A program made the translations under genes and the position numbers. The notes under the pieces are model-generated. The model was not told where the DNA came from. It ran no database searches and was given only the letters and a program-made list of their open reading frames with translations. Source: a virus. Taken from it: a stretch of 47,902 nucleotides of DNA. The DNA is taken from positions 1 to 47,902 of the IMG/VR virus record IMGVR_UViG_3300019881_000001, one strand, 5' to 3'. This document shows, piece after piece, positions 1 through 47,902 of this stretch; position 1 is the first letter of the stretch; each line of letters starts with the position of its first letter.

Positions 1-89
1 CAATCAGCCTCTTGCCGTTCGACCTTCTCGAGCGAGCCGTCCGGGGCGTAGCTGAGGCGGCAGTAGATGCCTGCGCTTTGAGGATCCAT
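1..89 (-). CDS. int: Serine integrase, 5' fragment duplicated by the circle overlap
   Basis: This is the amino-terminal part of the integrase whose complete copy lies at 46413-47864. The ATG complement is at 87-89 and the reading frame runs off the left edge of the window. It is not a second gene; on the circle it is the same locus. Confidence 0.9.
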   Translation of the reverse strand, partial: MDPQSAGIYCRLSYAPDGSLEKVERQEAD

Positions 90-95
90 GGGTTG

Positions 96-101
96 AGTAT
101 A
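96..101 (-). promoter_or_regulatory. Integrase promoter -10 element; leaderless start
   Basis: Read on the minus strand, TATACT lies six bases before the integrase ATG (87-89), with no Shine-Dalgarno sequence between. This spacing places the transcription start at or next to the A of ATG, which is the leaderless arrangement common in actinobacteria. The -35 is weak (TTGGCT, complement of 117-122, 15-base spacer). The same layout occurs before the RHH gene at 28998. Confidence 0.5.
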
Positions 102-150
102 CGTGACCGCTTGACAAGCCAACCGCGCATCCGCAAGATGGCACGTATAC
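97..150. other. Candidate attP of the serine integrase
   Basis: GTATACGTG (97-105) and CACGTATAC (142-150) are perfect 9-bp inverted repeats. Inside them CTTG (110-113) and CAAG (134-137) also pair symmetrically, as do C107/G140, A117/T130 and C120/G127. The centre is 123-124 (CC), a non-palindromic dinucleotide. Large serine recombinases use attP sites of roughly 50 bp with imperfect dyad symmetry around a central dinucleotide, usually beside int; this interval abuts the integrase start codon. The alternative is a regulator site between the two divergent promoters. The window edge at 127 splits the second copy, so only this copy is complete. Confidence 0.55.
111..139 (+). promoter_or_regulatory. 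Candidate promoter of the Ltp operon
   Basis: TTGACA (111-116) is a perfect -35 and CAAGAT (134-139) lies 17 bases downstream as a weak -10. A second -10-like TATACA occurs at 146-151. The downstream gene has a clear ribosome site, AGGGGGAA (161-168), before ATG 175. The putative attP centre lies between the -35 and the -10, so integration would separate the two elements. Confidence 0.45.
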
Positions 151-174
151 ATTCTTCTACAGGGGGAACCCAAC

Positions 175-807
175 ATGTCTGACTTCAACAGCAACCAGCC
201 GTACCAGCAGCAGCCGAATCAGTTCGACCCGCAGGGACTCCAGCCGCCCGCGCCGAAGAAGCCCCGCACCCACCGCGTCCGCAACACCCTGCTCGGTATC
301 GGTGCGGGGTTCGTCGTCCTGGTCGGTGCAGCGGTGGCGTTCGGTGACACCGGCGTGGAGGCCCCCGTTGCTGTCACGAGCAAGGCCGGTACGCCTGTCG
401 ACAACGGTCCCACCCCGGACCCGGTCGTGACGCCGACGAACAAGCCGAGCGTGGCGAAGACTACCCAGCCGGTAAAGACCACCGCACCGAAGCCTTCGAT
501 GACCGCGAGCCAGGAGCAGGCCATCGGCTCGGCGGAGTCGTACCTTTCGTTCACCGCGTCCAGCCGCAAGGGTTTGATCCGGCAGCTGTCGTCCGATGCG
601 GGCGAAGGGTTCTCGGTGGCGGATGCGACCTACGCCGTGGCCCACATCAAGGTCGACTGGAACGAACAGGCCGCGAAGTCCGCGCTCAACTACCTGCAGA
701 TGACGCACTTCTCGCGTCAGGGTCTGATCCACCAGCTCGAATCGAGCGCTGGTGAGGGCTTCACCCACCGGCAAGCTGTGTACGGCGTGACCAAGGCTGG
801 CCTGTGA
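175..807 (+). CDS. ltp: Ltp-type superinfection-exclusion membrane protein
   Basis: The 210-aa protein has a Gln/Pro-rich cytoplasmic head (about 1-35), one transmembrane helix (about 40-58, NTLLGIGAGFVVLVGAAVAF), a Thr/Pro linker, then two copies of the host-cell-surface-exposed lipoprotein (Ltp) repeat at about 109-160 and 161-210. Each repeat carries the signature S-R-x-G-L-I-x-Q-L-x-S-x-x-G-E-G-F. In Streptococcus phage TP-J34, Ltp blocks DNA entry of related phages. No lipobox Cys is present, so this form is held by its helix. It is the first rightward gene next to int and attP, the usual place for genes expressed by a prophage. Function in exclusion is inferred from the family. Confidence 0.85.
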   Translation: MSDFNSNQPYQQQPNQFDPQGLQPPAPKKPRTHRVRNTLLGIGAGFVVLVGAAVAFGDTGVEAPVAVTSKAGTPVDNGPTPDPVVTPTNKPSVAKTTQPVKTTAPKPSMTASQEQAIGSAESYLSFTASSRKGLIRQLSSDAGEGFSVADATYAVAHIKVDWNEQAAKSALNYLQMTHFSRQGLIHQLESSAGEGFTHRQAVYGVTKAGL

Positions 808-1025
808 TGAGCCAGCAGCAGTTCATCCCGCCTCGCAGCTACGCCCCGCCGGGTACGCCCGCGTGGCAGTCGCTGCCGTCCGCGGATGACTCGTTCGTCG
901 CGGGGTTCCTGCTGGCGGCGATGGAGACGCTGACCGTGTGCGGTGAGGAGTCGGCGCAGGAGTACGCGCGTCGTCATCTGGCTGCTCTGGTGGAGCTCGG
1001 GTATGTGGAGGAGGTTAAGTCGTGA
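807..1025 (+). CDS. Hypothetical protein (72 aa)
   Basis: The family is not recognised. ATG at 807 overlaps the stop of the Ltp gene as ATGA, which indicates translational coupling; a GTG one codon upstream is also possible. The protein is soluble, with a Pro-rich start and a helical, acidic C-terminal half. It overlaps the next gene as GTGA. Confidence 0.65.
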   Translation: MSQQQFIPPRSYAPPGTPAWQSLPSADDSFVAGFLLAAMETLTVCGEESAQEYARRHLAALVELGYVEEVKS

Positions 1026-1360
1026 CCCGGTCTGTGGAGATCCCGGACGCTGCGGTGGAAGCGGGGGTTGAAGCCTGGGCAACTGCGGGAGCGATCGCGT
1101 CAGTTCAGATCCGCGCCGCTCTCGTGGCGGCTAGGCCGTACCTGATGCCGACGGCTGAGCAGATCGCGACGGAGCTTCAGGCACACTACCTCCGGACTGG
1201 GATGGTGGTGGCTAGCGGCGTCACCTGCGAGTGCGGGTACTGGAATGGCATCGAGAGCCCCGGCAAGGATCGTCCTGTCGGCGCGCAGGGGCGGGACGGC
1301 TTGAACTGGCATCGCGCTCAGATCGTGAGCGCTCTGCTGAACGGAGAGACCGATGCCTGA
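1022..1360 (+). CDS. Hypothetical protein (112 aa)
   Basis: Starts at GTG overlapping the previous stop. The N-terminal half is Ala-rich and helical, followed by a segment common in actinophage small proteins (PTAEQIATELQAHY), then a Cys pair (CECG). No known domain is recognised. It overlaps the next gene by 8 bases. Confidence 0.65.
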   Translation: MTRSVEIPDAAVEAGVEAWATAGAIASVQIRAALVAARPYLMPTAEQIATELQAHYLRTGMVVASGVTCECGYWNGIESPGKDRPVGAQGRDGLNWHRAQIVSALLNGETDA

Positions 1361-1703
1361 CACCGAAGTCTACGGCGAGCTGGTCGGCCGGAACGTCATG
1401 GTCGGGAGCGTGCACGCAGTTATCTGCGACTACAACCGCTTCAATCGGCCGCCATTCACCTGGAAGTACGCCGTCGATGGCGAAGAGGGATTCGGGTGGC
1501 GGGAGAACTTCTACCTGCTGCCGACACGGGAGCAGATCGCGCAGGCGCTGCACGAGCACGAACTCGGCGACCCCTGGGACGACGAAGGCTGCAACGACCT
1601 CGGCGACGACGGCGAGTTCGCACCTTCCTGTAAGCAGACCTACCTCGAGCGCGCCGACGCCGTGCTGGCTCTTCTCTCAACCAGTGGGGAGGAGGAGTCG
1701 TGA
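1353..1703 (+). CDS. Hypothetical protein (116 aa)
   Basis: ATG 1353 lies inside the end of the upstream gene. The product is acidic, with an aromatic N-terminal half that looks beta-rich and a PTREQIAQALHEHEL helix like that of its upstream neighbour (PTAEQIATELQAHY), which hints at a shared small domain. Function unknown. It overlaps the next short gene as GTGA. Confidence 0.65.
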   Translation: MPDTEVYGELVGRNVMVGSVHAVICDYNRFNRPPFTWKYAVDGEEGFGWRENFYLLPTREQIAQALHEHELGDPWDDEGCNDLGDDGEFAPSCKQTYLERADAVLALLSTSGEEES

Positions 1704-1819
1704 ACACATGTGAGCAGGAGGACTGCCCGTTCTGGGATGGCCACGGCTGCCCGTGCGAAGTGCTGGATATCAGCGAGGAAGCCCGCGAGCAGGCCAAGCG
1801 TGATCTGGATGCCTACTGA
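1700..1819 (+). CDS. Cys-rich small protein (39 aa)
   Basis: GTG at 1700 overlaps the upstream TGA. The product has four Cys in its first 19 residues (C4, C9, C17, C19 with H15 between), which could bind a metal, followed by an acidic helix. It ends just before a hairpin. No family is recognised; support comes from the GTGA coupling and composition. Confidence 0.55.
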   Translation: MNTCEQEDCPFWDGHGCPCEVLDISEEAREQAKRDLDAY

Positions 1820-1822
1820 TTG

Positions 1823-1865
1823 ACCAGCATCGGACCCATCCCTCCCCCGGGTCGGGTGTGCTGGT
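1823..1865 (+). terminator. Hairpin after the first accessory operon
   Basis: ACCAGCA (1823-1829) pairs with TGCTGGT (1859-1865), and GACCC (1833-1837) with GGGTC (1849-1853) inside. There is no T-run, as is usual in GC-rich hosts. The position between the 39-aa gene and the secreted-protein gene fits a terminator or attenuator. Confidence 0.4.
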
Positions 1866-1896
1866 TGCTCAGGGTGGGTGACCTGAAAGGGAGATC

Positions 1897-2538
1897 GTGA
1901 ACATCAAGTTCCTGAACACCAAGCGGCGTCTCGCGGTAGCGTCCGTCCTCGCGGCCGGTCTGCTCGGCGGCGGTGTCGCTGTGGCGAACGCTGCGGGCGG
2001 TACCGGCTGCGCGACCTTGACCTACCCGTTGTGCCAGCGGTCGGTAGCATCGGGTCAGATCGTCGACAACGCGATCATCAGCAACGACCTGAGCCCGGCA
2101 CTGCGGAATGCGATCAACGCGCCGGACACGAAGGGCGCTGCCGAGCCGCTGTTCGTCAACGCGACACCGAAGGTCATCACGAACATCGGTGGCACGTTCT
2201 CGACCCGCCACACGGAGGTCGGCTCGTTCGTTCTACCGAAGGGGATGTGGCTGGTGAACCTGCAGGCCAAGTTCAACCGTGCGACCGCTTCGCCGGCAGG
2301 TGACCCGGAGGTGCAGCCGATGCTTCAGCTGGTCGGTGACGGCAACTACGTGACGGTGATGGGGTCGTCCATCAGCCCGGGGCTGGACGCGGACCTGACC
2401 GGTTCGGCTGTCAGCCTGGTGACGGTGACCGCGGACACGACGTTCACGGTGAACGCGTTCGGCTACAACTCGGCGCGTGGGTCGCAGGGTTCGGGTGAGA
2501 TCACGGCTCAGGCTGTCGTGGTCGCGGTCCGCGCCTAA
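1897..2538 (+). CDS. Secreted protein with Sec signal peptide
   Basis: The 213-aa product starts at GTG behind AAAGGGAGA. Residues 1-32 form a classical signal peptide: a KFLNTKRR positive patch, a hydrophobic core LAVASVLAAGLLGGGVAVA and an ANA-A cleavage site. The mature part has two Cys near its start (GCATLTYPLC) and a beta-rich, Thr/Val-rich C-terminal domain of about 130 aa resembling a C1q/TNF-like jelly roll, though this is only inferred from the strand pattern. It stands alone between hairpins, as morons expressed from prophages do. A lysogenic-conversion role is plausible but unproven. Confidence 0.75.
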   Translation: MNIKFLNTKRRLAVASVLAAGLLGGGVAVANAAGGTGCATLTYPLCQRSVASGQIVDNAIISNDLSPALRNAINAPDTKGAAEPLFVNATPKVITNIGGTFSTRHTEVGSFVLPKGMWLVNLQAKFNRATASPAGDPEVQPMLQLVGDGNYVTVMGSSISPGLDADLTGSAVSLVTVTADTTFTVNAFGYNSARGSQGSGEITAQAVVVAVRA

Positions 2539-2547
2539 GTAGTACCG

Positions 2548-2581
2548 TGTGGGGTGGCTGCCTGTATGGGGTCACCCCACA
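2548..2581 (+). terminator. Terminator hairpin after the secreted-protein gene
   Basis: TGTGGGGTG (2548-2556) and CACCCCACA (2573-2581) form a perfect 9-bp stem with a 16-base loop, starting 10 bases after the stop codon. A short A-rich stretch follows instead of a T-run. Confidence 0.65.
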
Positions 2582-2591
2582 AACGAAAAGA

Positions 2592-2623
2592 GCACGCCCC
2601 AGCCTGTCGGGGCTGGAGCGTGC
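2592..2623 (+). terminator. Second hairpin, terminator or leader attenuator
   Basis: GCACGC (2592-2597) pairs with GCGTGC (2618-2623) and CCAGCC with GGCTGG inside, across one mismatch. It lies 11 bases behind the first hairpin and 29 bases before ATG 2653. It could be a second terminator or part of the next gene's leader. Confidence 0.5.
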
Positions 2624-2652
2624 GAGTCAGACTGACGAAGGAGTCCGACGAG

Positions 2653-2892
2653 ATGAACGATAGCAAGCAGGCGGCGGCGCGCTACTTCCTGACGCGACCA
2701 TGTACCTGCCCGGACAGCCCCGTCGAGCACGAGGTGTCGAAGGCTGACTACGTGTCCGCCGAGCGGGAGGTTGGGTTCTACAACACTCTCGGGCGGCCGA
2801 AGGAGCCAGCCACCGGGAGCTTCTCCAGCACCAAGTCAGGCGTCACCATCTCTGGCCGGATCTCAAACGAGTCACTCTTGGACCAGCCGTGA
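2653..2892 (+). CDS. Hypothetical protein (79 aa)
   Basis: The chosen ATG follows GAAGGAG at a good distance; a longer frame from 2554 would read through the terminator hairpins and is rejected. It contains CTCPDSPVEHEV, a Cys/His pattern, and a Ser/Thr-rich tail. Function unknown. It couples to the next gene by GTGA. Confidence 0.6.
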   Translation: MNDSKQAAARYFLTRPCTCPDSPVEHEVSKADYVSAEREVGFYNTLGRPKEPATGSFSSTKSGVTISGRISNESLLDQP

Positions 2893-3110
2893 CCGATAGC
2901 AAGACAGTGGTAGAGGATCTGGCAGCCGGCGATTTCGACGGCACCTACCAACTGCGGATGATCATGGCGTACCCGGTCATCTCGGATATGAGCCGTGATG
3001 AGTTGATGTTCGCGGACCCAGACGAGAAGCGTGCCGCGTTTGAGCGCATCCTCGCTGCGAAGAACCTGCGGCGCACTCATGAGATGTATCTCGCTCGGTG
3101 GATTCGATGA
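2889..3110 (+). CDS. Hypothetical protein (73 aa)
   Basis: GTG start overlaps the upstream stop. The protein is small, soluble and acidic, with a helical C-terminal half. No domain is recognised. It overlaps the next gene as ATGA. Confidence 0.6.
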   Translation: MTDSKTVVEDLAAGDFDGTYQLRMIMAYPVISDMSRDELMFADPDEKRAAFERILAAKNLRRTHEMYLARWIR

Positions 3111-17374: not shown

Positions 17375-19477
17375 CTACCCTCCAGTCGCTGTAGGAACGG
17401 TCATAGCCCCGGATGAAGCTGCAGGTGCAGAGCTGGAGCCGGATGACGCGGAGGCCAGCACGGCGGACCCGGCATTCGCTGAAGGTGTAGCTACTGCCGC
17501 GGCTGAAGCTGCAGGTGCTTGGCCCGTGGCCGCACTCGCCGTTCCGAAGGAGACGAGTGCCGTGAAGGTCCCGACCGCGACCACTGTCTGGTTCGCTTGC
17601 ACTACGGCTGCGGTGCCGGTGATAGGACCGCTGACGACTCCCGTAGCGGTCGCAATGTCCGCAGCTTCAACGACAGCGGCTGTTCCGGTGTATCGGAGGA
17701 TGCCGTTGGCGATGGAGAACTGGTTCGCCTGCACCGGCGAGGCGGTTCCCGTGACCGGGTTTACCACTGTCCCCGAAGCGGCGGATGTGTTGTTCGCCTG
17801 CGACGGTGCCGCGGTGCCGCTATACCCGAGTTGGCCGGATGCGGCGCCGGTCTGGTTCGCCTGGGTGACTGCGGCACTGCCGGCGAACGATCCACCAGCA
17901 GTGAAGGTGCCGGACGCGGAGGCGGTCTGCGCTGCCTGGCTCGCCGACGCGGTCCCGGTGTAGCCGAGTTGCCCGCCTGCGTTCGAGGTCTGCGCTGCCT
18001 GTGTTGCAGAGCCAGTTCCTGAGTAGCCGAGTTGGCCGGATGCGGCGGATGTGTTGGCAGCTTGCGTGACCGCCGCAGTTCCGGTGTACCCCAGTTGCCC
18101 CGAGGCGGTAGACGTCTGGTCGGCCTGGGTGGCGGTGATCGTTCCCGTGAACCCGCCACCGCCGGCTATCGGGGTCGCCATATCGGTGCTGATCTGGGCA
18201 GTGCTCAGCGCACCGTCGTAGATTCGGGTCTCGCTGACGAAGGTTCCGGAGCCGCCGTTGTCGAAGATGCGGTAGTCGTCAGCGTCCTGGATCGACGTCA
18301 AAGCGGTGTCGGACCCGACCTGGGTTCCGTCCTTGTACAGCCGAAGGACTTTGCCGTCAGCAACCAGCGCCCAGTGATGCCAGTTCGCGCTGTCGGGCGT
18401 GGCGGTGATGTCGACCGGTGAGCCACCGGAGTCTTTGGCCCGGCCGCTGAATGAGCCGGACAGTTCAAGGTAGCCGTAGGTGCCGGTGTCGCCGGTGGTC
18501 TTGTGGTGCATCAGGAACCAGCCGGGGTCGTTGAGTCCGGCGCCCTTGACCCAGGACATCACCGTACGGGCAGGGGTGTTCAACCCGGTGATGCTGGGAC
18601 CTTGCTGCACCTGCCCGGACGTGCCCTGCGAGATGGCCTTGACGTTCGGCTGCGCCCCACTGTAAGTGTACCCGCCACCGGCCGATGTTCGAGACGCAGT
18701 GGTGAGCGTGAAGGCACGGCTGTTACCGGACTGGTCGACCACATCGCCGCTGGCCTCGCCGTAGTTGTACGACGCAAGCAGGACCGGTGCGGGTGCGATC
18801 TCCAGGATGATCCCGCCGGCCCGTGAACTGGTCGCCCAGGACGAGGAACCTGCAGTGTCGGTCCCTGCGATGTACTGGGTCTCGACCGAAGCCAGGGACA
18901 CGGTGTTCACGTCGGCGAGTTCGGTCCAACCCGACCTCGGAGTTTTCGCTTCCTGGACCTGGTGACCCCACGCGGAATAGCCGGCGCTGGTAGACCTCAT
19001 CGTCGTTGCGTAGTTGACGCTCGCCAACGTCGCCGCCGATCCGAGGGTGACCCCGGTGGACTGGACAACCGCACCCGCGCCGTTGGTTCCGGAGGTGTTG
19101 ACGTCCGCAGTCGACTGGTCGACAGCCCATTGGATCCGGGTCTGCGAGACAGCCCCGAACGAGATCGTGATCGCGCCTGACGTCGGTGACGCGGACATGC
19201 CGCGGAACACCCACATCGTGGCCCGATCGGTGCCCGCAGTGTCGACGTCCTGCGCCTTCACCAACGTGTAAGTGATGCCGTTGCCTGTGACCGAAGGGGT
19301 GGCGGGCTGCACTGATCCGGTGGAGATGTAGGCGTGGACCGTGACGAGGACCAGACAGTCTGCGGTTGGACTGACCGATGCCGTCGTGGTGGACGTCGAT
19401 GACGCGACTCCACCGCCGGTCAGGTTGGTGAACGCAGTCACGCTGCCCCCAGACACGGACTTGAGTAGCAGGAGCAT
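17375..19477 (-). CDS. Large LamG-containing virion protein with tandem C-terminal repeats
   Basis: This 700-aa protein has an N-terminal beta domain (about 1-225), a concanavalin/LamG jelly roll (about 230-435, with the family's HHWALVADGKVLRLYKDGTQ motif), then about nine degenerate repeats of 21-25 residues (about 443-640), and an Ala/Ser tail. Each repeat has T-G-T-A-x-x-x-Q-A-x-x-T-x-x-A-S-G. It lies between capsid and connector genes, so it may be a head-attached fibre rather than a tail protein. Sugar binding is inferred from the LamG fold. Confidence 0.72.
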   Translation of the reverse strand: MLLLLKSVSGGSVTAFTNLTGGGVASSTSTTTASVSPTADCLVLVTVHAYISTGSVQPATPSVTGNGITYTLVKAQDVDTAGTDRATMWVFRGMSASPTSGAITISFGAVSQTRIQWAVDQSTADVNTSGTNGAGAVVQSTGVTLGSAATLASVNYATTMRSTSAGYSAWGHQVQEAKTPRSGWTELADVNTVSLASVETQYIAGTDTAGSSSWATSSRAGGIILEIAPAPVLLASYNYGEASGDVVDQSGNSRAFTLTTASRTSAGGGYTYSGAQPNVKAISQGTSGQVQQGPSITGLNTPARTVMSWVKGAGLNDPGWFLMHHKTTGDTGTYGYLELSGSFSGRAKDSGGSPVDITATPDSANWHHWALVADGKVLRLYKDGTQVGSDTALTSIQDADDYRIFDNGGSGTFVSETRIYDGALSTAQISTDMATPIAGGGGFTGTITATQADQTSTASGQLGYTGTAAVTQAANTSAASGQLGYSGTGSATQAAQTSNAGGQLGYTGTASASQAAQTASASGTFTAGGSFAGSAAVTQANQTGAASGQLGYSGTAAPSQANNTSAASGTVVNPVTGTASPVQANQFSIANGILRYTGTAAVVEAADIATATGVVSGPITGTAAVVQANQTVVAVGTFTALVSFGTASAATGQAPAASAAAVATPSANAGSAVLASASSGSSSAPAASSGAMTVPTATGG
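17560..18150 (-). repeat. Nine-unit coding repeat in the LamG head protein
   Basis: Consecutive units start at (T/S)G(T/S)(A/I), carry QA or EA at positions 8-9 and A-S-G near position 16, and are separated by QLGY or similar linkers. The central units are most alike; the last three diverge. Boundaries are approximate. Confidence 0.7.
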
Positions 19478-34618: not shown

Positions 34619-35826
34619 GCGAACTCCCTCTGTGTGCGTTGCCAGTCCTCATCGCTTGCCTTCGGGTCGATCGCCGTCCACGGCCACAACCCGCCCCGCT
34701 TGATCCGCTGCGGCCAGTTGCGTTCGTCGCGGTCGCCGCGCCACGCGACCATGTCGACGTCGCCGACCTCGTTCCACCGCAGGCCGTAGCCGAACTCGGG
34801 CCAGCCCATGAGCGCCGCCGAGCCTCTAGGGCGCATGTTGCGTTCGTCGCCCTTCGTGGTGGCGTGGCCGGCGTGAGCCTCCAGCACCAACGTGATCCCG
34901 CGCGCCCGGATCGAGTCCAAGGCGCTGATCACCGGAGCGACATGGTCGTCGGTCTGCAAGGCCCTGGGGGCGAGCTTGTACAGCGGCCCGATCACCAGCA
35001 GGTCCGGTTGGGTCGCGTCCAGGACCCGGTTGATCCACGACAGGTCCTTGTCCTTCACGATGTCGATCCCGGCCGGGCGGCAGTCGATGGACACACCGTC
35101 AGACGGGTCCTTGCCCTGCGTCTTGGCCTGCAGCCACATCGCGTGGAGTTGACGCTTCACATGTCGCTCGGTGTTCTCGAGGTCGATGATGTGGGCCCGG
35201 ATCGGCTTCATCGGCTCACGGGAGAACGGATGGATCCCCGCGGCCCCCATGAGTGCCAGCTGCCGCAGGAAGACGCTCTTGCCCAGGCCTTCCTCGCCGG
35301 TGATCACCAGACGGTCCATGCGTTCCAGCAGCTGCGGGATCACCCAGTCGTACGGCTCCTCGGGTTTGCTCATCAGCTCACCGAGGGTCTGGGTCTCGAT
35401 ATCCGGCGCACCCAGGTCACGGATCTTGGTGAGCGCGTTGACGGTCTCCGATACCAGCGACTGCGGGTCGGTCTCGAGGTCCTCGGCGCGTTGCCGCATC
35501 CGGATCGCCTGGTTGATCACCTCACGCCGCCGAGCGAACCCATGGACTGTGGATGCGTACTGCTCCACCGAGTCCGGGATCGCCGGGTTGGTGGCGATGG
35601 TCAGATGCACGCTCATCAGGTGCTTGTTGCCGTTCAGAGCGAGTTGTACCGCCATCGCGTCGGTGGCCTTGCCGTCGGCCTTCAAGCCCCGCAGAACGCT
35701 CCACAGCTTTTGGTGAGCGAGGTTCGCGAAATCGGCGGCCGTCAGGATCCCAGCTGCACGCTCCAACGCCAGAGGGGACTGGTAGCAGCAGGACAGGACG
35801 ATCTGCTCGGCGAGGTCGTCGTTCAT
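34615..35826 (-). CDS. DnaB-type replicative helicase
   Basis: The 403-aa product has a DnaB N-terminal domain (about 1-130: EQIVLSCCYQSPLALERAAG, F-x-N-L-A-H-Q-K-L) and a RecA-like ATPase with Walker A GEEGLGKS (177-184), Walker B after LLVIGPLYKL and a H-x-G-H sensor region. The ATPase is closer to the RepA/AAA_25 type than to classical DnaB. ATG 35826 overlaps the Mom-like stop and has GGGGAAG before it. Confidence 0.85.
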   Translation of the reverse strand: MNDDLAEQIVLSCCYQSPLALERAAGILTAADFANLAHQKLWSVLRGLKADGKATDAMAVQLALNGNKHLMSVHLTIATNPAIPDSVEQYASTVHGFARRREVINQAIRMRQRAEDLETDPQSLVSETVNALTKIRDLGAPDIETQTLGELMSKPEEPYDWVIPQLLERMDRLVITGEEGLGKSVFLRQLALMGAAGIHPFSREPMKPIRAHIIDLENTERHVKRQLHAMWLQAKTQGKDPSDGVSIDCRPAGIDIVKDKDLSWINRVLDATQPDLLVIGPLYKLAPRALQTDDHVAPVISALDSIRARGITLVLEAHAGHATTKGDERNMRPRGSAALMGWPEFGYGLRWNEVGDVDMVAWRGDRDERNWPQRIKRGGLWPWTAIDPKASDEDWQRTQREFA

Positions 35827-36476
35827 GAGACTTCCCCAAGGGGTGGCATGTTCAGGCTGCGGCGAGCCCACTTCAGTTCGACCTCTGTAGCCCGTTGCCG
35901 CCAGTACCGGACCGCAGCTGCGTCATCGATGGCCAGCGCTAGGCGCTGGGAAGGATCAGGTTTCACGCAGAAGACCCACCGGTCCTTTACCTCTTGCCGA
36001 CCGGTGCCCCAGTCACCGCTACCGGTCGGCGGTGGTCGAAGCCGATGCCATGTTGGCGCCCACCGCCAATTGCAGGCTCGGTACAGGGCGCCGGTGTGCC
36101 CATGGGCCGGGTCGCTGTAGGACACCAGTGTCGTCGCCTCCGGGAGGTGCTCGCGAATCAGTCGAAGGCTCCATCGGTGCATGCGGCTTCCGGCGTTCTC
36201 GCCCGCCCCAGCGGTGAGGCACCATCGGGAGAGCTCCAGCCACGAACCGTCATTCGGAAGGCGTCGAGATGTCGGACTGCGCCACATCATCGCGGCGACC
36301 AACTCACCAGCGCGCGAACCGATGACCGTCAGGCGAGCACCGGAGCGCAACGGACCGAGGTAGTGGTGCCTAGCGAGTAGGTAGTTGGCCTCCCAAGGTT
36401 GGCCTAGCCTCCACATCACGCCATCGGCATCGAGAAATCCATAGAGGTCCAGTAGTAGTCCGAGATCGCCGCTCAC
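35823..36476 (-). CDS. mom: Mom-like DNA modification protein (GNAT fold)
   Basis: GTG 36476 overlaps the replication initiator stop; a longer frame is not supported. The 217-aa product has features of the Mu Mom family: an N-terminal H-Y-L-G segment, ELSRW (81-85), a helix with S-R-x-x-x-x-x-S-L-R, then LVSYSDPAHGHTGALYRACN (117-136), matching the Mom core V-S-Y-(A/S)-D-x-x-x-G-H-x-G-x-(I/L)-Y-x-A-x-N-W. Mu Mom converts adenine to N6-carbamoylmethyladenine and blocks many restriction enzymes. Same activity here is inference. Other GNAT transferases are the main alternative. Confidence 0.72.
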   Translation of the reverse strand: MSGDLGLLLDLYGFLDADGVMWRLGQPWEANYLLARHHYLGPLRSGARLTVIGSRAGELVAAMMWRSPTSRRLPNDGSWLELSRWCLTAGAGENAGSRMHRWSLRLIREHLPEATTLVSYSDPAHGHTGALYRACNWRWAPTWHRLRPPPTGSGDWGTGRQEVKDRWVFCVKPDPSQRLALAIDDAAAVRYWRQRATEVELKWARRSLNMPPLGEVS

Positions 36477-37243
36477 TGGAACCTCGCCCGCACGTCGTCC
36501 TTGGCGTACCCGTTCCGCGACGCAGGGGAAGCCGCGTCGGGGGAATCGTCCTGGGCCTTCAGCAACCAGTTGCGCCACGTGGCGCGCCAGTCCGTCTTGA
36601 CGCCCTTCGCGCCGGCCAGAGCAGTCCAGTAGTTGACGAAGCGTTCGGTCTGACGCATCACCCACTGCGGCTGCATGCTGCGTTCGACGGCCCATTCCTT
36701 CATTGCCTCATCGACGGTGAAGGGGTCCGGGATGCGTGTGCCCTTGGTCGTTGCCCGCGGGATTTTGGCAGCCCCGCGAGGGGCAAGAGTGCTTACGTTA
36801 GTAAGTACTTCTTTCTCTGTCTCTGTCTCTGGTACAGGTTTGCTACCCGTTTGCTTGAGCTCTTGCTTAGCACTTGCTTTAGCACTTGCTAGGTTTTTGC
36901 TACGCGCCTTGCCACCCAGCGACCCAGCCTCGCGGCGGCTTTCTCGCAGGTCAGAGACCTCTTGAGCGCTCCGCTGGTGGTCCAGGTAGTCGTGGAAGGA
37001 CGCGTCTCCTGTGTCGGAATCCAGGTAGACGAGACCTTCACGGACGAGCTCGTCCCGAGAGCGCTTGTTACCTTTCCGTGACCACACTTTTTCGGGGATT
37101 CGCCCATCGGTGAGGTACCGGGAGCAGTAGCACCAGCCGGTGACGAGCAGGCGGAATGCGGCGTCAGAGAGCGCGTCGATCTTCGGGTGGTCGGGCATGC
37201 CATCATGCACCCGGATATAGGTCCGCGTGTCCTTCTCCGCCAT
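36473..37243 (-). CDS. Replication initiator-like HTH protein
   Basis: The 256-aa product starts behind a perfect AAGGAGGTGA. Residues 5-95 form a winged-helix domain as in phage replisome organisers (YIRVHDGMPDHPKIDALSDA, then LVREGLVYLDSDTGDASFHD). A Lys/Ser/Ala/Thr/Glu-rich linker precedes a helical C-terminal domain (VNYWTALAGAKGVKTDWRAT). Place before the helicase supports initiator or helicase-loader function. Confidence 0.75.
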   Translation of the reverse strand: MAEKDTRTYIRVHDGMPDHPKIDALSDAAFRLLVTGWCYCSRYLTDGRIPEKVWSRKGNKRSRDELVREGLVYLDSDTGDASFHDYLDHQRSAQEVSDLRESRREAGSLGGKARSKNLASAKASAKQELKQTGSKPVPETETEKEVLTNVSTLAPRGAAKIPRATTKGTRIPDPFTVDEAMKEWAVERSMQPQWVMRQTERFVNYWTALAGAKGVKTDWRATWRNWLLKAQDDSPDAASPASRNGYAKDDVRARFQ

Positions 37244-45340: not shown

Positions 45341-45486
45341 CAGGCCGCTCCCCGTCCCCACGCCGTGGCCTTCCGTCCGCGCCCCTTGCCAGCGACGATC
45401 CGCGTGAGCCGGGTCTTGCGGTGCATCCTGTGACCGGCGTGCTTGCGGCGAGTCGTGGCGCGTGTGTTGCCGTCGTGGCGCGGCAT
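45340..45486 (-). CDS. Small Arg/Lys-rich protein (48 aa)
   Basis: Very basic (RATTRRKHAGHRMHRKTRLT) with a second basic block (GKGRGRKA). ATG touches the excisionase stop. Nucleic-acid binding is likely, function unknown. Confidence 0.5.
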   Translation of the reverse strand: MPRHDGNTRATTRRKHAGHRMHRKTRLTRIVAGKGRGRKATAWGRGAA

Positions 45487-45671
45487 CAGCTGGCCGCCTT
45501 GACGGACTTGGTCATCGCGTCGAGGTCGGCGCGGTTGATGCGCAGCAGGCGGGGCCCGACGCGATGTGCGGGGAGCAGGCCCCTGTAAATCCAGCGCCTG
45601 ATCGTGGAGGTGTCCACCTTCATGTAGGTGGCCGCTTCAGCGGGGCTGAGTTCCTGGGGTTCTGTGCTCAC
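45486..45671 (-). CDS. Excisionase-like/MerR-type HTH protein
   Basis: The 61-aa product has LSPAEAATYMKVDTSTIRRW-I-Y-R-G-L-L-P-A-H-R-V-G, the winged-helix motif of the excisionase/AlpA/MerR-like group. It is the first gene of the leftward early operon and faces the repressor. It could be the recombination directionality factor for the serine integrase or a Cro-like regulator. GTG 45671 lies at the predicted transcript start, so it may be leaderless. Confidence 0.75.
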   Translation of the reverse strand: MSTEPQELSPAEAATYMKVDTSTIRRWIYRGLLPAHRVGPRLLRINRADLDAMTKSVKAAS

Positions 45672-46412: not shown

Positions 46413-47864
46413 CTATACCGGTTTCCGGCGCTCCACCTTTACGCGTGATGGATCGAAGCCCGGCCCACGCGTCTCCACCGGTAACACCGTGATCTTGAAC
46501 AAGGCGCTCACGGTCGCAGACCGCACGTCGATGGGTTCCGCATCCCATTGCTCCCGGGTGATGCCGGCCATCCGTGCAAGCATCCGCTTCTCGGTGCCCG
46601 TGGCCAACTGGGCGCGCAGCTGCTCGATCTTCCGGTCGAAGCTCACCATCGACTTCACCAGCCATGCCGGGTCCACATCCGGGTGTTCGGCGAGCTCATC
46701 CAACGTCACTCTGACACCATCCCTGCGGCGCTCGAGACTGACGATCTCCGCGCCCATACCTGGCCGCTCGGACTCGGCGTAGATGGCGTCGATGAACGCA
46801 GGCTCGTTCAGTCTCCGCAGGGTGCGGCCGATGACGTACTCGTCCAGGAGCCGGATGTTGCGGGACACCCGGTTCGGGCAGTCCCGGTTGTTGCAGTAGT
46901 ACTGCCGTGCCTTCGCCGACCGGCCAACGATTGGCTTGGTCCACAGTGGGCCAGCGCACGAACTACACTTCGCATCCCCGCTCAGCAGATGCACGCGCTC
47001 CCGGCCATGGGAGGGGAACAGTTCCGTCTTCCGCTTCAGCAGAGCCTTCAGATCCTCCCAATCCTCGCGGGGGATGATCGGCTCCCACCCGGCGTCGAGC
47101 AACTGCACCGGGGAGTCCCTGGTCTCCTTGTACGCGATGAGTCCGGCGATCCTCGGGGTCAGCATCCACTGCCGGAACCCTGACGGGGTCCACTTGTTCC
47201 CGTTCGTGGTGGTGGACACCGTGTTCAGCCAGGCGATCACGCCGCCCTGCGATTGGCCGGCCAGGAATCTGGTGATGGCCTCGCGTCCAGCAGATGCCTC
47301 CTCCTCGACGATCTGCGACAGATCGAACAGCGGCTTGCCTGTCACCCCGGTCTCACCCGTGGGGATGCCGTAGCCGAACGGACGGTTGCCACCACCGGTC
47401 GGCCTGCCTGCCTTGGCGCGGGCTTCGTTGGCTCGCTTGACGCGACGCGAGGTGTCGGCGGACGCCTTGCATGCCTGTGCGACTTCGATGCGCAGGATGA
47501 ACCGGTCGTCCTCACTGTTCAGGTCCCTCGTGCCTTGCGGTGACGCCATCGGGAAGTGCTTGTCGTCGGCGAGCTTAAGCAGCAGTTCGAGATCCCAGGG
47601 CTGCCGGATGAGCCGGTCGCCGTGGTACACAAGGATCCCGTCCAGCTTGCCGGTCTCGATGTCGGTCAGCATCCTGTCCCATGCGGGGCGTTTGCGGTCC
47701 CGCTTCCACGCGGAGCGGGAGTTGTCCGGGTAGACCTCGCGGATCCTCCAGCCCAGACGCTCAGCTAGCGCGCGGCAATCAGCCTCTTGCCGTTCGACCT
47801 TCTCGAGCGAGCCGTCCGGGGCGTAGCTGAGGCGGCAGTAGATGCCTGCGCTTTGAGGATCCAT
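46413..47864 (-). CDS. int: Large serine integrase
   Basis: The 483-aa product (from ATG 47864) has a serine-recombinase catalytic domain: GIYCRLS with nucleophile S13, ERQEADC, and H-G-D-R-L-I-R. A recombinase domain (about 170-270, RPFGYGIPTG) follows, then a zinc ribbon (CSSC...YYCNNRDCPN) and a coiled coil (SLERRRDGVRVTLDELAEHP and on), the layout of phage integrases such as those of phiC31 and Bxb1. A TTG extension of 11 codons would begin 33 bases upstream, but TATACT six bases before ATG favours the leaderless ATG. It directs attP x attB integration. Confidence 0.95.
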   Translation of the reverse strand: MDPQSAGIYCRLSYAPDGSLEKVERQEADCRALAERLGWRIREVYPDNSRSAWKRDRKRPAWDRMLTDIETGKLDGILVYHGDRLIRQPWDLELLLKLADDKHFPMASPQGTRDLNSEDDRFILRIEVAQACKASADTSRRVKRANEARAKAGRPTGGGNRPFGYGIPTGETGVTGKPLFDLSQIVEEEASAGREAITRFLAGQSQGGVIAWLNTVSTTTNGNKWTPSGFRQWMLTPRIAGLIAYKETRDSPVQLLDAGWEPIIPREDWEDLKALLKRKTELFPSHGRERVHLLSGDAKCSSCAGPLWTKPIVGRSAKARQYYCNNRDCPNRVSRNIRLLDEYVIGRTLRRLNEPAFIDAIYAESERPGMGAEIVSLERRRDGVRVTLDELAEHPDVDPAWLVKSMVSFDRKIEQLRAQLATGTEKRMLARMAGITREQWDAEPIDVRSATVSALFKITVLPVETRGPGFDPSRVKVERRKPV

Positions 47865-47902
47865 GGGTTGAGTATACGTGACCGCTTGACAAGCCAACCG
47901 CG
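47776..47902. repeat. Terminal direct repeat, right copy (circle overlap)
   Basis: Exact copy of bases 1-127. It ends four bases past the centre of the candidate attP, so the attachment site is complete only at the left end. Confidence 0.93.

Follow-up and report, generated by a model that had tools for sequence, protein, structure and literature searches.

The window, a 47,902-nt stretch, is a phage record whose 127-bp direct terminal repeat indicates a circular genome, with a unit of 47,775 bp (Table 1). Near the record start, a 54-bp interrupted dyad lies between the divergent genes for a large serine integrase (int) and for a superinfection-exclusion-type protein. The dyad straddles the end of the terminal repeat, so only 97–127 is present twice. 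The int ATG occupies 87–89 (minus strand) in the first repeat copy and 47862–47864 in the other, 7 bp from base 97, which bears out the description in a first-pass annotation of the palindrome as directly upstream of int.

Table 1. Features of the integrase end of the window and of the putative attachment site.
Feature	Position	Strand	Basis
Large serine integrase (int), 483 aa	46413..47864	-	PF00239 + PF07508
Direct terminal repeat; ends inside the dyad	1..127, identical to 47776-47902		
TATACT, probable int -10 element of a leaderless transcript	96..101	-	Start codon spacing, for a putative promoter role
Predicted attP, 54-bp dyad	97..150	- (int strand = minus)	Symmetry, conservation, pattern match
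Predicted crossover dinucleotide, CC on +, GG on int strand	123..124		Columns 27-28 in 10/10 relatives' attL/attR
Outer arm, int side (P' arm), probable zinc-ribbon-domain motif	97..105		Conserved columns 46-54; contact predicted from LI integrase structure
Outer arm, far side (P arm)	142..150		Conserved columns 1-9
Superinfection-exclusion-type protein, other side of attP	175..807	+	phrog_15667, phrog_4980

The integrase has a Resolvase catalytic domain followed by a Recombinase domain, both matched above cut-off, and an alignment of three integrases showed conserved Cys, candidate zinc-ribbon ligands. Querying the phage collection with it matched 351 records, all below 60% identity and at ∼30% among the matches listed; plasmids gave 19 records, again all below 60%. 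The first two viral contigs found encode integrases 81% and 62–63% identical to it. No direct DNA match to window positions 1–3000 was found among phage records. Elsewhere in the window, 35823–36695 (minus strand) matches the Mom-like DNA modification family phrog_1384 and adjoins the replication genes, and a 700-aa ORF among the virion genes (17375–19477, minus strand) has no PHROGs match.

The dyad is built as the first-pass annotation had described it, with perfect 9-bp arms (9/9 outer pairs), an inner pair of CTTG at 110–113 and CAAG at 134–137, and CC at the centre. Overall 16 of 27 pairs match about the central dinucleotide, in keeping with the size and symmetry that had been claimed for this class of attP. 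Symmetry by itself is weak evidence, being near chance genome-wide: the window genome has 10 perfect 9-bp inverted repeats of 40–60 bp span, and 21 centres with at least 16/27 pairs, the same as the mean of 21 in 200 Markov-1 resamples. Requiring 9/9 outer pairs as well as at least 16/27 overall left two centres in the 47,775-bp circle, the dyad and 45513–45566; the resamples averaged 0.125 (maximum 2). It is its position and its conservation in relatives that make the dyad more than a chance repeat. A 54-bp family pattern, composed with the window's own site in view, had a single match in the window, at the dyad with 0 mismatches where up to 2 were allowed, and none in 100 shuffles; across viral_contigs it picked out only five stretches, in the records behind L004, L009, L015, L020 and L030.

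The second symmetric centre falls inside a 61-aa ORF (45486–45671, minus strand) that by eye resembles a small helix-turn-helix excisionase, a candidate directionality factor or regulator.

Related viral contigs carry counterparts of the site. L003 and L004 each have a counterpart of 54 bp that keeps the register, placed between int and an ORF homologous to the superinfection-exclusion gene, at the equivalent place. Besides the window, 15 of 26 viral loci have a full 54-bp dyad beside the related integrase. Two more (L019, L027) resemble, by eye, attL hybrids with reverse tadA sequence, five (L008, L011, L017, L022, L028) start within 25 bp of int, and in the other four (L023–L026, integrases 38–43% identical) no dyad was found. 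Across 26 sites, namely the window, the 15 viral ones and 10 rebuilt from prophage ends, 11–20 of 27 pairs match, with 5–9 of 9 outer pairs. Most of the information content lies in columns 1–9 and 46–54, and columns 27–28 vary. Conservation of the int-side arm is partly by construction, because its end was chosen by motif; the opposite arm, at a fixed distance, is the independent part.

Prophages related to the window were sought in genome databases. An earlier scan of genome_contigs with a single integrase gave 31 pattern matches, none of them a relative. A scan with an integrase alignment gave 63 loci, and the int upstream region was read in 15 of them (L031–L045). Nine of the 15 are lysogens in tadA (L031–L034, L036, L037, L041, L042, L044). 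L035 has a full dyad and is apparently the same contig as L021, the two agreeing in length and in upstream sequence; the int upstream regions of L038, L039, L040, L043 and L045 showed no dyad. Integrase searches in 390, 345 and 384 genomes brought the new lysogens G270, G808 and G1064, and none nearer the window integrase than L041 and L031; G982, with an integrase 42% identical, had no dyad. Twelve prophages, with integrases 49–67% identical to that of the window, sit in a split TadA/CpaF-type ATPase gene (PF00437), which encodes a motor protein of pili or secretion. A fragment of tadA that ends at the usual break point, with a Gln CAG codon, also lies mid-record in the viral record of L017 (L148; G695:C1:36367-36609), perhaps marking a second element at the tadA target.

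Both ends were read for 10 prophages, in Phytoactinopolyspora, Planotetraspora, Acrocarpospora, Herbidospora, Spongiactinospora, an Actinophytocola MAG (ends on two contigs), two Streptomyces, Actinomadura hibisca and G270. The first-pass annotation had proposed looking for the core shared by attL and attR; in these relatives attL and attR agree, in 10 of 10, at columns 27–28, right in the middle of the 54-bp register. Joining the host flanks restores the tadA frame, open through the motif GEVRGxE...LNTGH, again in all 10. Registers came from the arm motifs alone in six of the prophages; the left-arm register was set by hand in the other four (Phytoactinopolyspora, Actinophytocola, G270, A. 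hibisca). The common attL/attR block was exactly GA in 4 of 8 pairs compared. In the attL and attR hybrids of eight lysogens only 4–10 pairs match, 1–5 of them outer, and intact or rebuilt attPs pair well; such symmetry loss is the outcome expected of recombination at the dyad centre. The junction is as in the other tadA lysogens for G808 and G1064, where only attL was read, with cores GA and AT by the 54-bp rule. The two Streptomyces prophages and that of A. hibisca are inserted in reverse; their cores, TG and GT, are complementary to the first two bases of the His (CA) and Thr (AC) codons. The A. hibisca half-site does not directly adjoin the int match, from which it is ∼230 bp away. Junctions downstream of int, the finding that would have counted against the original proposal, occurred in none of the 10 relatives, all of which recombined at the dyad upstream of int. 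Because attL and attR of the relatives share the central dinucleotide and the host tadA is restored in frame, 97–150 is very probably the attP of the adjacent integrase, with a predicted crossover at 123–124, and the proposal gains this much support from sequence comparison.

The host target of the window phage can be approached through the integrase tree, in which the window, L003, L007 and L004 branch together within a group of 19 rows; this group contains 10 lysogens, all of them in tadA. The group's own fork has support of 85/79, and several inner forks are weakly supported. Integrases of four Streptomyces lysogens (L038, L039, L040, L043; 45–48% identical) fall outside the group and lack the dyad in the region read, so what holds for the group does not extend to the wider integrase family. 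The actinobacterial tadA prophages (the nine listed above, L138 and others) share with the window the integrase group, the 54-bp register and the predicted central junction, and differ from it in having cores GA, TC, TG or GT instead of GG. By these relationships the window phage probably uses a tadA-type gene or a paralog.

It is possible, though we think it unlikely, that the dyad is attP but the crossover of the window's clade is off centre, or that its target is a gene unrelated to tadA. What raises this prospect is the core: it is GG in the window (on the int strand), CC in L003, L007 and L009, and CA in L004, whereas among 98 Actinomycetes genomes the tadA motif was found in 59, with cores counted by eye as 55 GA, 2 GC and 2 CA. 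A search of 296 genomes turned up none with GG at the tadA codon; an S-S dinucleotide occurred in 3 of 394 (two GC, one CC), the CC, or Pro, version being that of L216. No lysogen was found for the window phage, L003, L004 or L007, and attL patterns for a Pro-codon target had no match in viral_contigs in either orientation. With no lysogen of its own found, and a GG/CC core that matches no common tadA codon, an attB in tadA remains a candidate for the window. Yet the arms keep the 54-bp register, tadA is the target of the nearest lysogens (L031, L041) and of L044, the sister of L009, the family core is variable anyway, and TadA-type genes with a Pro codon do exist, Pro being found at the motif position also in paralogs. 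Our guess is that the window attB lies in a TadA-type gene of some unsampled host, one encoding Pro or Gly at this point.

We also considered a purely regulatory role, in which the dyad would be an operator or promoter region, occupied by a regulator or by the integrase as its own repressor, and attP would lie elsewhere. Its place between divergent genes is as expected of such an element. The int-side arm contains TAYAC-T, and in 23 of 25 sites the start codon comes 7–9 nt past the TAYAC end of the dyad, a count that caught an earlier ATG/GTG triplet in L007 and L031; beside the other arm there is likewise an outward TATACA. In most sites, those of L004 and L009 for example, no TATA-like element is present in the far arm, and the prophage junctions described above swap one half of the dyad, exactly at its centre, for host DNA, making this explanation highly improbable. 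A promoter role of the dyad for int would be compatible with its role as attP: the int-proximal arm probably also carries the −10 element of a leaderless int transcript. This putative −10 element would be in line with actinobacterial promoters. That the dyad is a mere chance inverted repeat, for all the abundance of comparable repeats and centres in this genome, has next to no probability, given that 15 relatives and 10 rebuilt sites show it at the identical place with identical spacing.

Taking the dyad as attP, we propose that an integrase dimer would bind both half-sites, its zinc ribbon domains probably on the conserved outer arms. Crossover would take place at the central dinucleotide, with attP pairing with a host attB of the same dinucleotide, and strand exchange would insert the circular phage genome. 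After integration, the two hybrid sites would be flanked by int and by the superinfection-exclusion gene, respectively. The latter gene, thus at the prophage edge, may be expressed in the lysogen. For the relatives, attB would be one codon of the TadA/CpaF-type ATPase gene, entered in either orientation with disruption of the gene. Conservation of the site, the junction position and the target are seen in the relatives' sequences; from these we infer that the window has the equivalent junction and target, that the protein contacts are as proposed, and that the window integrase is the catalyst.

A near parallel is Listeria phage A118 with its LI integrase. For that system PMC3783163 describes an attP like the window site in layout: about 50 bp, two half-sites, a 9-bp distal motif and a central crossover dinucleotide, used by a large serine integrase. 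Half-sites in the LI structure are 25 bp, with the distal 9-bp zinc-ribbon motif at 16–24, and a model has this motif shifted 5 bp inward in attB (PMC3783163). The half-site of the window family is 27 bp and its conserved arm covers about 18–26; with the outer arm ∼2 bp further out, the family fits the LI scheme at that offset. All 20 half-sites of the 10 attBs have GT at the +5 place; this is only suggestive of the inward shift, since of 32 shifts +5 has the second-best matrix score, after −1. The two attB arms are alike, and this may be why insertion occurs in both orientations.

Serine integrases with an attP are also described in actinobacteria for phiC31, phiBT1, R4, SV1, phiJoe and Samy, as named in PMC12924846 and in other literature; Samy integrates in a radical SAM gene, unlike the tadA relatives (PMC12924846). 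A search of open-access literature found no description of tadA as a serine-integrase attB. The gene tadA is not known to be the target of phiC31, phiBT1, R4, SV1 or phiJoe, and we take the host of A118 to be of a different phylum from that of the window phage.

A broader reading, on which as a whole we are evenly balanced, is that a serine-integrase group across Actinomycetota has come to target a single codon of a TadA-type ATPase gene, with attP arms conserved and the core following the codon's first two bases: GA for Asp/Glu, TC for Ser, CA for His, AC for Thr and perhaps AT. Either orientation would be used because attB is roughly symmetric, and the window phage, like L003, L007 and L009, would represent the CC/GG version, suited to TadA genes whose codon there is for Pro or Gly.

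If so, a lysogen would have its TadA ATPase switched off and would keep the superinfection-exclusion gene. For an uncharacterised integrase group, attP is here placed, as a prediction, to the base pair. With core dinucleotides that vary naturally at a single target, the matching of core to attB can be tested directly, and a conserved actinobacterial attB in tadA could be used as a landing site in genera for which few genetic tools exist.
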